From Gammaproteobacteria bacterium (GTDB lineage: Bacteria; Pseudomonadota; Gammaproteobacteria; AKS1): DNA of 44,461 nucleotides. How positions within the stretch are numbered: the first letter of the stretch is position 1; every line of letters starts with the position of its first letter. The notes under the pieces were generated by a model. It was not told where the DNA came from. It was given only the letters and a program-made list of their open reading frames with translations, and searched no databases. The stretch spans positions 6,920 through 51,380 of the forward strand of contig JALTKS010000070.1 of the NCBI GenBank assembly GCA_027006175.1, given 5' to 3'. This document shows positions 15,989 through 44,461 of the stretch, piece by piece. Both the position numbers and the translations under genes were made by a program.

Positions 15989-16789
15989 TTATGTTTTATT
16001 CTCTTCTTTATTTAATTTTTTCACATTACGCTTATAGCGCCACTCACTTAATTGTGCATACGCCATAACGGTAATCATCGGGAATAAACTGGCAAAAGCA
16101 ATTAAACCAAAACCATCAATAATCACACTGCGACCTGGCACGGTTCCAGCCAAACCCAAACCTAATGCCGCAACAAGAGGAACCGTTACCGTGGATGTGG
16201 TGACACCACCCGAGTCATAAGCCAGCGGTATAATCATTTTAGGTGCAAACAGCGTTTGTATAAGTACCAGCACGTAACCGGTAATAATGTAGTAATGCAA
16301 TGGTGTGCCGGTAACAATTCGAAATGTTCCCATTGAAATACCAATGGCAACACCTACCGCAACCGCTATACGTAAACCCCAAACACCAATAGCGCCAGCG
16401 GACACCGCATTTGCCTTAATCGCAACCGCAATCAATGATGGTTCAGCAATGGTTGTAGAAAAACCTATTGCGGCCGCAAATAAATAAACCCAAAGGTAAT
16501 CCCCCCAGTTCAACTTATCTGATACCGCCTCAATGCCGGCATATATAAAAGCAGGATCAGTCAATTGTGTTGCCATTAACTTACCCAGCGGGAACAACGC
16601 TTCTTCCAAACCGACTAAGAAAAAACCTAAACCAAGTAACACATACAGCAAACCCAACAAGATATTTTTTAAATTAGATATTTTTTGTCGTAAAACAATA
16701 ATTTGAAAAAAGAAAATAATCGCAATAATCGGTATCAGATCAAACAGAGTCTGCGTCAAGGTATGAAAAACATGTTCCAGCAATCCCAT
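15989..16789 (-). CDS. DUF1538 integral membrane protein, second copy
   Basis: The 266-residue protein has about seven predicted membrane segments. Conserved loops include FSTTIAEPSLIAVAIKA and [19 protein letters not shown], followed by VIIDGFGLIAFASLFP. These small-residue, Ser/Thr-rich re-entrant-looking motifs suggest a substrate or ion path. It is a paralogue of the protein encoded directly upstream, and its start overlaps that gene's stop by one base (TAATG), which implies a stoichiometric pair. The charged C-terminal tail (RYKRNVKKLNKEENK) is probably cytoplasmic. To my knowledge DUF1538 has no established function; transport is an inference. Confidence 0.85.
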   Translation of the reverse strand: MGLLEHVFHTLTQTLFDLIPIIAIIFFFQIIVLRQKISNLKNILLGLLYVLLGLGFFLVGLEEALFPLGKLMATQLTDPAFIYAGIEAVSDKLNWGDYLWVYLFAAAIGFSTTIAEPSLIAVAIKANAVSAGAIGVWGLRIAVAVGVAIGISMGTFRIVTGTPLHYYIITGYVLVLIQTLFAPKMIIPLAYDSGGVTTSTVTVPLVAALGLGLAGTVPGRSVIIDGFGLIAFASLFPMITVMAYAQLSEWRYKRNVKKLNKEENKT

Positions 16790-41683: not shown

Positions 41684-41947
41684 ATGGCTAACTCAGCACA
41701 AGCAAAGAAACGCGCTCGTCAGGCGGAAAATCACCGTCAGCACAACGCCAGCATGCGTTCATTAATGCGTACGCGCATCAAAAACGTCGTTAAGGCAATT
41801 GCTTCAAATGACAAAGACGCAGCTGCAGCTGCTTACAAGCTCGCTGTTCCAGCGATTGACCGTATGGTTAGCAAGGGCTTAGTGCACAAGAACAAAGCTG
41901 CACGTCATAAGAGCCGTCTTAACAATCACGTCCGCAGCATGGCGTAA
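41684..41947 (+). CDS. rpsT: 30S ribosomal protein S20
   Basis: The 87-residue highly basic protein starts [15 protein letters not shown], with [11 protein letters not shown] in the middle and IHKN-type [17 protein letters not shown] at the end, exactly the S20 pattern. It binds 16S rRNA early in 30S assembly. A strong promoter lies upstream and a strong terminator 21 bases downstream, so it is monocistronic. It diverges from murJ, an arrangement common in gammaproteobacteria. Confidence 0.98.
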
Positions 41948-41967
41948 GCGTTTAAAGATATGCATTA

Positions 41968-41995
41968 AAAAAGCCGCTCTAATGAGCGGCTTTTT
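41968..41995 (+). terminator. Intrinsic terminator of rpsT
   Basis: A 12-bp perfect stem, AAAAAGCCGCTC / GAGCGGCTTTTT, with the loop TAAT has its T-tract built into the right arm. Because the stem is flanked by A on one side and T on the other, it may also end the leftward cluster transcribed toward it. Confidence 0.9.
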
Positions 41996-42018: not shown

Positions 42019-42522
42019 CTACCAGGGCATAAAGCTATTTATTTTGTTCATAGGACGAGACACGCTGTAGTTCATCACCGCCATGTCATGGCTCATCTTA
42101 TTTATTGACTGATTCATGGCATTCATATTATTCACCATTTTTTGCATTGCTTCAGTCTGATTATTCGTATTCTGCGACACTAAAATCATGCTCTCGGAAA
42201 TTACCGTCATATTCTCTGATATGGTTTGCATATTTTTGGCCATTTGATGGGCATCTTCGGTCAGGCTAAAGATCAAATAAAACCCGTAACCCGCCAATAA
42301 AATGAAGGCAAATAAAGAAGGATAAACAATCATTTCCCAACGACGAGCACTTGCGGTGAAGGTTTTCGACAGCGTTTCCATGCTGCGTCCCATGCATTCT
42401 TCCATGGATTTTTTCTCAGCAATCGCTGGATCCTGACACTTCTCACAATCCGGTGCACCACAATCACCATCATCACATGAGGCGGCTATGTCTTTGTCTG
42501 TCGCGCTATCATTACTACTCAT
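42019..42522 (-). CDS. Cys-rich, Met-rich single-pass coiled-coil protein, unknown
   Basis: I do not recognise this family. The 167-residue protein has an acidic N-terminal segment with cysteines at 16, 21, 26, 29 and 43 (CDDGDCGAPDCEKC), a single membrane helix at about 64-86, and a C-terminal part of about 75 residues with 13 methionines and many Asn, Ser and Ile in heptad-like spacing, probably a coiled coil. The cysteines could bind a metal; the methionines may be core residues or a copper-type site. It is last in the leftward DUF302/TPR cluster, 93 bases behind the DUF302 gene. Confidence 0.75.
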   Translation of the reverse strand: MSSNDSATDKDIAASCDDGDCGAPDCEKCQDPAIAEKKSMEECMGRSMETLSKTFTASARRWEMIVYPSLFAFILLAGYGFYLIFSLTEDAHQMAKNMQTISENMTVISESMILVSQNTNNQTEAMQKMVNNMNAMNQSINKMSHDMAVMNYSVSRPMNKINSFMPW

Positions 42523-42615
42523 TGCAAACTCCTAAATATATACTAAATCAATAAGTTACTGCGCAGACCTCCACTCCACAAACAGCCCATACTCTATGTC
42601 TAACTTTTATTGTTT

Positions 42616-43203
42616 TTAAAAATCACCATCAGCACCGCGGTGCATGATAGCAAGAATTGTCTCCTTAACCTTGATTGCTTCCTTTTTAAGATCCGCGGGT
42701 AAGGTTTTACCGCCGTAAATCATTAAATCCATATTCAAGGTATAGAGCCAAACTTTACCCTGTTTATCTTCAACCATTGCGACTCGACAAGGCAGGTAAG
42801 CAGAAAAGGCATCACTGTAATCGAGCATTTTAACGGCTGTTAATGGATCACAGAACATATAAATCTTGAGGGTTCGGTAATCCTTACCGGTCATCAGTGC
42901 TACTTGCTTACTGAGTGGCAGTTCACCTACATTTTTTATATTGTATTCATTCGCAACGGCTTTCATCGCTTCTTCTGCATCGGCAGGACTGACACCATCA
43001 GAAAGTGGTACACGCCAAACGGTTGCTTCTGCCGCATTACCTGTTTCTAAAACCGTGCTCATCATCTTCATGTAAACATCAGCGGCCTTTTCATCAAACT
43101 GCTGCATCGCCTGAATTTCTTTTTGAAAATACAAGCCGCAAACAACCGCAATAACTACGACGACAAATCCTATTAGTGCAAAAAATCGACCCAAAATACC
43201 CAT
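42616..43203 (-). CDS. Membrane-anchored DUF302-domain protein
   Basis: The 195-residue protein has an N-terminal membrane helix (about 5-26) followed by a domain that looks like DUF302: the strand IYMFCDPLTAVKMLDYS, then YLPCRVAMVEDKQGKVWLYT. The two cysteines C118 and C139 fall in these conserved strands. DUF302 proteins are small beta-alpha folds of unproven role, often linked to sulfur or redox metabolism by context. Orientation suggests the domain is periplasmic. It lies between the TPR genes and the Cys/Met-rich gene. Confidence 0.75.
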   Translation of the reverse strand: MGILGRFFALIGFVVVVIAVVCGLYFQKEIQAMQQFDEKAADVYMKMMSTVLETGNAAEATVWRVPLSDGVSPADAEEAMKAVANEYNIKNVGELPLSKQVALMTGKDYRTLKIYMFCDPLTAVKMLDYSDAFSAYLPCRVAMVEDKQGKVWLYTLNMDLMIYGGKTLPADLKKEAIKVKETILAIMHRGADGDF

Positions 43204-43222
43204 ACTACGACTCCCTGAATTT

Positions 43223-43672
43223 TTAAGAGTTACTTTCCTGTTTACTATTTAAGTTACGCAAATGTTCATTTATTCTCGCGGACTGTTCTTGATCCATCTG
43301 ACTAACCAGACGATGAAAAAATTGCGCACGTTGCATTTCTTTCTTATCAATTAAACGCAAGGCAACCTCGGCATACGCTCTCGCCGCATCTTTCCATCTC
43401 GCCTGCATATAATAGAGATTACCAAGCTCACCCCATGCATCCATATCTGCATTGTCTGACTTCGTTATGATGCGATATAAACGCTCTGCTTTAAGTAAAT
43501 CTCTTTCCCAAAATGCTTTTCGTGCCTCAGTGATTGAACTCGAACTCGCCTCAGCATCTTCCGAAGACACCAGCATCCCGTGTTCAGAACCATTACCAAA
43601 ATAAATAAGCGCCACAATCATCGCCAGAATAAAACCGGCAGCTATTAATAATGTGCTTCGCATTGACATCAT
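43223..43672 (-). CDS. Membrane-anchored TPR protein, short paralogue
   Basis: The 149-residue protein has an N-terminal membrane helix (about 6-25) and a TPR-like module: ARKAFWERDLLKAERLYR, then WGELGNLYYMQARWKDAARAY and a basic last helix. It is clearly related to the C-terminal part of the protein encoded directly upstream, pointing to tandem duplication. Three closely spaced ATGs are possible starts; AGGGAG sits just before the first, so the second (43669) may be the one used. It is 19 bases ahead of the DUF302 gene. Probably a scaffold; partner unknown. Confidence 0.75.
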   Translation of the reverse strand: MMSMRSTLLIAAGFILAMIVALIYFGNGSEHGMLVSSEDAEASSSSITEARKAFWERDLLKAERLYRIITKSDNADMDAWGELGNLYYMQARWKDAARAYAEVALRLIDKKEMQRAQFFHRLVSQMDQEQSARINEHLRNLNSKQESNS

Positions 43673-43679
43673 TCTCTCC

Positions 43680-44461
43680 CTAACGATTTAGTGGTGCTTG
43701 TAAGGCTTTAACACGTTCATCTATTCGTTTTACCTGAACAGGATCCAACCCCATCACGATATAACGCATAAACATTGCCTGCGGAAAATCCCCCTTATCC
43801 AATAAAAGCAATGCAGCTTCCGTATATGCCCTGGCTGCAAGCTGCCACTTTGCTTGCAAGTAATAAATATTACCAAGCTCTCCCCAACTATTGGCGTTAG
43901 CATGAGCCGTTTCAATTTGTTGTTTATATAGCGCTTCTGCTTTTGGTAAATCACGCTGCCAAAATGCCTGTCGTGCCTGTGCAAGATCAATTTCCTGCTT
44001 CGCTTTTACAGGTGCAGGTTCTTTAACTTGCTCTTGTTTCACTACTGCTGGTTCTGTCGCTTCTATGAATGTTGCTTGTACAACCGATTCTGTTTCTTCA
44101 ATAACATCATGCGGCGCTTCTGTTTTTATTGCCGGTTCTTCAATCTCAGCGGTTACTGTTTCAATATCATTTTTTTCAGGTTCAGAAGGCGCTTCTACAA
44201 CACTTGCTGTGACGACTGTTTCAGTAATATCTTTATCTTCTGATTCAACACCGTTTTTTTCTTCTACTTCGATGACTTTTACAGGCTCGCTTTTCACAAC
44301 GGGAGTAGCAACGGCAACAACTTCTTCAGCATCATCTTTATCTGATTCAGAATCCTCAAGTGCATGCGGCATCGGTGCTGCCATCGGATCCACTTTTTCA
44401 GGCGTCATGAAGTCATGCATCATTGTCTGTGCTTGTTGATAGGTTTGCTGTACCTGTGGCA
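43680..44461 (-). CDS. Partial acidic TPR protein, long paralogue
   Basis: The frame stays open to the right edge, so the start lies outside the window: upstream of the Met at 44423 there is no stop and no ribosome binding site. About 120 visible residues form a low-complexity Glu/Val/Pro/Thr-rich linker, followed by a TPR module, ARQAFWQRDLPKAEALYK and WGELGNIYYLQAKWQLAARAY, which aligns with the next gene's product. No membrane helix is visible in this part; one may precede it. Function unknown. Confidence 0.75.
   Translation of the reverse strand, partial: PQVQQTYQQAQTMMHDFMTPEKVDPMAAPMPHALEDSESDKDDAEEVVAVATPVVKSEPVKVIEVEEKNGVESEDKDITETVVTASVVEAPSEPEKNDIETVTAEIEEPAIKTEAPHDVIEETESVVQATFIEATEPAVVKQEQVKEPAPVKAKQEIDLAQARQAFWQRDLPKAEALYKQQIETAHANANSWGELGNIYYLQAKWQLAARAYTEAALLLLDKGDFPQAMFMRYIVMGLDPVQVKRIDERVKALQAPLNR

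Follow-up and report, generated by a model that had tools for sequence, protein, structure and literature searches.

The right-hand end of the window—the whole 44,461-nucleotide stretch of DNA analysed, from a Sulfuriflexus genome—carries four consecutive genes for membrane-anchored proteins, all read leftwards, and the question it raises is what these genes do together. The first-pass annotation had grouped them as a cluster specifying one complex at the inner membrane, with a redox or metal process in mind. Their adjacency is real, with intervals of 93, 19, and 7 bases between the open frames exactly as had been described, but the operon to which they belong is longer, and they make up only its downstream half (Table 1).

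The right edge of the window coincides with an assembly gap of 100 N (L006:6382-6481) that falls inside TPR1. As the two flanks of the gap carry an identical 127-base overlap, TPR1 is read as a single gene across it. The start ATG lies at L006:6765 (genome C70:51764), approximately 50 codons further out, giving a protein of about 312 aa in total that gains a short cytosolic stretch and a membrane helix; a start at 44423 was wrong, the gene running on past the window edge. Contig G000:C70 (L006) then carries the operon onward on the same strand as the four genes, and the sequence beyond the edge, to which the first-pass annotation had pointed, holds the most informative genes; those for ParA, a PF17228 protein, and an RND exporter lie there. 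In the direction of transcription, the operon runs from the RND exporter through secreted proteins (including one of PF17228 type), a LolA-like carrier, ParA, TPR1, TPR2, and DUF302m to CC. Most of these genes overlap or almost touch, and a single transcript is therefore likely; shared transcription and inner-membrane anchoring, both proposed earlier, are supported. At the downstream end, the stem-loop faces rpsT (41684-41947, plus strand), which lies back to back with the operon. A scan for promoter patterns returned sites less often than in shuffled sequences.

Table 1. Features of the operon in the window and on contig C70 beyond its right edge (unprefixed positions refer to the window).
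Feature	Position	Strand	Description
Stem-loop with T-run	41967..41995	.	Operon end; sequence read
CC	42019..42522	-	Single membrane helix and Met-rich coiled coil; N-terminus cytosolic, C-terminus RPMxxMNSFMPW conserved
DUF302m	42616..43203	-	N-terminal membrane helix and DUF302 domain; Cys118 and Cys139 invariant
TPR2	43223..43672	-	N-terminal membrane helix and TPR; TPR1 paralogue
TPR1	43680..44461	-	Inner-membrane anchor, long acidic linker, C-terminal TPR; cut by window edge (open frame 43680-44459)
ParA	C70:51783-52406	Same as operon	Next gene out from TPR1
106-aa secreted protein			First gene outward past ParA
253-aa secreted protein			Second outward
Gly/Asn/Trp-rich secreted protein			Third outward
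117-aa secreted protein			Fourth outward
Proline-rich repeat protein			Fifth outward
RND exporter	Contig end of C70	Same as operon	Last 63 codons only

Sulfur globules are among the best-known bacterial inclusions, and it is mainly their coat proteins that have been described. The Gly/Asn/Trp-rich protein of the operon scores 26.7 bits against PF17228 (sulphur globule protein), which is exactly the gathering cut-off for these low-complexity proteins; matches in relatives score 30.9 bits (L017) and, for an in-operon protein, 64.9 bits (L210, in a second class of the phylum). Like SgpA and SgpB, the PF17228 proteins are rich in Gly, Asn, Trp, and Tyr, possess a signal sequence, and match the profile, but here the gene shares one operon with an exporter, ParA, and membrane proteins, and the Sulfuriflexus operon copy matches only at the cut-off. 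For the 253-aa secreted protein, Foldseek comparison of a good model indicates a fold of LolA/RseB type (E down to 1.2e-7, probability 1.0), albeit with a TM-score of only about 0.35-0.4. ParA has the deviant Walker A motif KGGxGKS (alignment A4), and ParF is its nearest solved chain. Elsewhere in the analysed genome, a second PF17228-type gene (L222:15468-16028 and 16061-16423, G000:C27) contains two PF17228 matches in one frame and adjoins a cysteine-bearing ArsR-type regulator; the pairing recurs in G043, with L196:16823-17901 listed as well.

Judged from its published description, the locus that comes closest to this neighbourhood is that of sgpD in Allochromatium vinosum (Alvin_2515): sulfide strongly induces sgpD, the adjacent genes encode a two-component regulator and an HAE exporter, and the gene product is found on globules (PMC10386293). 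As described, the locus would share with the operon a gene for a secreted globule-envelope protein next to genes for a regulator and an exporter of RND type (HAE), likewise in a sulfur oxidiser, but neighbours of the ParA, TPR, coiled-coil, GTPase, or DUF302 kind do not appear in the description.

The genes had been expected to be neighbours in related genomes, and so they are: gene order is common to all four Sulfuriflexus genomes, and the island recurs in many families. In distant relatives, it comprises a PAS/sigma-54 regulator, an MFP, the RND exporter, proline-rich and other secreted proteins, a PF17228 protein, a LolA-like protein, ParA, a membrane TPR protein, CC, a dynamin-like GTPase, and sometimes DUF302m. 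Strong matches to ParA (E at most 1e-70) were found in 58 of 370 Gammaproteobacteria genomes, belonging to 28 families, with weak matches in 5 more; the GTPase is present in 88 of the 370. ParA also occurs in 10 families of the second class, where the island (L210-L221) is shorter and consists of MFP, RND, secreted proteins, LolA-like protein, PF17228 protein, ParA, and CC. CC is retained in most islands of both classes.

The GTPase of these relatives contains a Dynamin_N domain and resembles EHD proteins among solved chains. It differs from EHD and dynamin-like membrane GTPases in its predicted C-terminal membrane hairpin, in its absence from Sulfuriflexus (no match in three of the genomes, including the analysed one), and in occurring alone in other genomes; the same family is found without the island in many other Gammaproteobacteria (L060, L063, L073, L080, L081, and L085). 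Two island proteins of approximately 245 aa (L013:11499-12242 and L014:13695-14426) resemble the membrane part of the GTPase and lack a GTPase domain, the L013 protein occupying the place where the GTPase would be expected.

Sulfuriflexus is a sulfur oxidiser, and dsrA and soxB are both present in the analysed genome. With one genome taken per family, dsrA or soxB accompanies ParA in 24 of 24 families, compared with 44 of 124 others (p 5e-10), in hand-transcribed tables and as an association that is partly phylogenetic. Among sulfur oxidisers chosen by the analyst for the PF17228 search, and with the same reservations, PF17228 genes occur outside the island in 43 of 56 ParA-positive genomes versus 7 of 83 ParA-negative ones (p 4e-17), or 17 of 24 versus 4 of 42 when one genome per family is counted (p 4.5e-7). 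All 7 ParA-negative sulfur oxidisers carrying PF17228 genes have the GTPase, and none of the 59 sulfur oxidisers with neither ParA nor GTPase carries one. The GTPase without ParA was considered as a sulfur marker in its own right and dropped, because with one genome per family its association with dsrA or soxB is not significant (9/14 versus 59/134, p 0.17). The association of the operon with sulfur oxidation and globule-type proteins is well supported and is held with confidence; in Sulfuriflexus, it is seen at the level of genes.

The genes are linked with sulfur oxidation and sulfur-globule proteins, not with metals. Of the earlier redox or metal hint, sulfur stands, whereas the conserved cysteines expected of CC are absent: they are present only in Sulfuriflexus, L013, and L014, are missing from L015-L018, and alignment A2 contains zero invariant cysteines. 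Given this distribution, a metal or redox role for CC is poorly backed by conservation, and a metal role was set aside. It is very improbable that the four genes by themselves account for an inner-membrane redox or metal complex; their shared orientation, their small gaps, and the two invariant cysteines of DUF302m would fit such a complex, but the genes belong to a longer operon, DUF302m often lies elsewhere, and TPR2 is a lineage-specific addition found only near Sulfuriflexus. TPR matches in the Sulfuriflexus proteins are weak and below the Pfam cut-offs, and in a relative they rise above a cut-off; the earlier claim that the two TPR modules are paralogous is upheld by a 48% match between TPR2 of G001 and TPR1 of the analysed genome.

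Complete operon RND exporters are mostly 1210-1423 aa in length, owing to a C-terminal tail that is of low complexity and mostly rich in lysine. In an alignment of ten exporters, GIRLK is invariant close to the end of this tail, the rest of which cannot be aligned; the tail is disordered and carries RRGI(R/K/Q)LK. When scanned with the pattern (R/K)GI(R/K/Q)(L/I)(K/N), all 47 ParA-positive genomes with a complete readable tail (27 families) possess the motif, and it is absent from 8 of the 9 ParA-negative genomes with an operon RND exporter—four genomes of family f74, G318, G287, G298, and G133, the last with a degenerate KSVRIK. The sole exception is G084, which has the motif and in which ParA was not found; its contig stops after the RND gene. 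A stricter pattern recovered the motif in 17 of 19 tails versus 0 expected, and shuffled tails never produced it. Tail-less RND paralogues of the same genomes show no motif. In G056, the motif lies in an overlapping frame, with its sister G184 having it in frame, and in the second class, whose shorter island shares the RND tail motif, the exporter of L221 reads RRGIRLR. Both motif-bearing and motif-less states occur within families f69, f124, and f131; hence, loss of the motif and ParA has occurred more than once.

Members of the ParA/MinD family position cargoes such as carboxysomes (McdAB) and plasmids (ParF-ParG). The joint loss of tail motif and ParA points to the RND tail as the peptide partner of ParA, a reading in which we are fairly confident. 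In ParA/MinD systems, the ATPase holds its cargo through a partner whose disordered terminal peptide is positively charged (PMC10241942); the described peptides are N-terminal, whereas the candidate peptide of the RND exporter is C-terminal. The operon resembles known positioning systems in having a small deviant-Walker-A ParA and a co-encoded candidate partner whose terminal tail is basic and disordered, and differs from them in that this candidate is an RND exporter and the proposed cargo is periplasmic. The membrane TPR protein was rejected as a general ParA partner, because outside Sulfuriflexus, where its cytosolic tail is long, that tail amounts to a few residues.

A co-varying pair of ParA and exporter could also be accounted for if ParA, like BcsQ or TadZ, places or activates the RND export machine, for example at the pole, with the secreted Gly/Asn/Pro-rich proteins forming a sulfur-handling matrix on the outer surface rather than an intracellular globule coat. 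The weak matches of ParA to BcsQ models agree with this, as do the signal sequences of the secreted proteins, which could allow them to leave the cell. We regard such an arrangement as unlikely, since the further PF17228 genes of these genomes speak for globules and SgpD, whose gene has a similarly described neighbourhood, is located on globules inside the cell (PMC10386293).

The explanation we favour, and consider probable, is that the four genes provide membrane accessories at the downstream end of a sulfur-globule operon in which ParA binds the RND tail and spreads exporters and globule-assembly sites. We infer the physical binding by ParA, the positioning, and the individual roles of the four genes from sequence. 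Coat proteins of the sulfur-globule type, a periplasmic LolA-like carrier, and the RND exporter would come from the upstream genes. ParA would bind the disordered cytosolic C-terminal tail of the exporter, with its RRGI(R/K/Q)LK, and in this way spread exporter complexes, along with the sites of globule assembly in the periplasm, across the nucleoid or membrane and share them between daughter cells. Sulfur globules are located in the periplasm (PMC10386293), and the inner-membrane exporter would link the cytosolic ATPase to the periplasmic assembly site. The TPR and coiled-coil proteins—and, in relatives, the dynamin/EHD-like GTPase—are envisaged as organising the membrane around this site, the TPR proteins by binding other proteins, CC as a possible structural link across the membrane, and the GTPase perhaps by bending it; DUF302m would act on the periplasmic face.

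With a LolA-like carrier encoded beside the exporter, lipids or hydrophobic coat components are plausible as its substrate. The same combination of RND pump, HlyD-type adaptor, and LolA-like carrier would suit detoxification efflux of sulfide-related or other hydrophobic toxic compounds, and the link to sulfur oxidisers would fit this too, with the low-complexity proteins being incidental. Efflux of this kind seems decidedly unlikely, however, as it leaves ParA, the conserved tail motif, the GTPase, and the globule-protein link unexplained.

As coat-type proteins, an exporter, ParA, and, in relatives, the GTPase are united in one operon, the island may be machinery that builds and places sulfur granules, and we are moderately confident that it positions globules. 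Counting against the favoured explanation, family f74 keeps an otherwise intact island with no ParA gene between those for the LolA-like and TPR proteins, and 11 ParA-positive genomes have no match to PF17228 at all. Globules are reported in 'Ca. Thioglobus', from which dynamin is reportedly absent (PMC6509183), and the complete island is thus not required for globules. A more ambitious version, in which the island is a dedicated positioning and membrane-shaping system—ParA holding its cargo via the C-terminal RND peptide, and the EHD/dynamin-like GTPase with TPR and coiled-coil proteins forming a periplasmic pocket—is put forward tentatively, its chances being a little short of even. If true, it would, to our knowledge, be without precedent both as a positioning system for an inclusion in the periplasm and in its use of an RND exporter as a ParA partner, and it would extend ParA-type positioning to a membrane exporter and periplasmic cargo. 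For the assembly, placement, and inheritance of globules, the island offers candidate genes, a predicted interaction between ParA and RRGI(R/K/Q)LK, and natural losses. Within the portion of the open-access literature covered, no report was found that links DUF302, ParA, MinD, dynamin, or nucleoid positioning with sulfur globules, nor any account of the ParA, GTPase, TPR, CC, and DUF302 parts or of the tail motif.

The DUF302 assignment, for which a profile search had been named beforehand as the test, withstands it (PF03625 in Pfam, 47 bits versus a cut-off of 23, E 2.4e-12). The AlphaFold model of DUF302m matches the solved DUF302 folds 1q9u and 1j3m with a Foldseek probability of 1.0, although the model is of low confidence (pLDDT 57.6), and a sequence search of the PDB gave no match; with that search empty and the model poor, no active site is proposed. 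The domain probably faces the periplasm. Since both cysteines are invariant across six sequences, DUF302m may have a thiol role, and, more speculatively, it may contact polysulfide or a carrier protein. Its identity is 78-100% across all four Sulfuriflexus genomes. The gene is frequent but mobile: the ParA-positive genomes that were searched hold 31 full-length copies, of which 20 lie, by coordinates, beside ParA or the GTPase. In Thermithiobacillus, a DUF302 protein suggested to be periplasmic is encoded between soxA and soxB in the sox cluster (PMC5037610); it shares with DUF302m a length of about 190 aa, a sulfur-oxidising host, and the suggested location, but DUF302m sits in a globule-type operon rather than beside sox genes. 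Full-length relatives of DUF302m also lie in unrelated neighbourhoods of the sulfur oxidisers G036 and G119, which are without ParA (L105:1501-2088 and L116:1492-2079). The analysed genome additionally encodes a cytochrome c-like protein that has a DUF302 domain at its C-terminus (L222:4120-5184), adjoined by a second DUF302 protein (L222:3677-4123).
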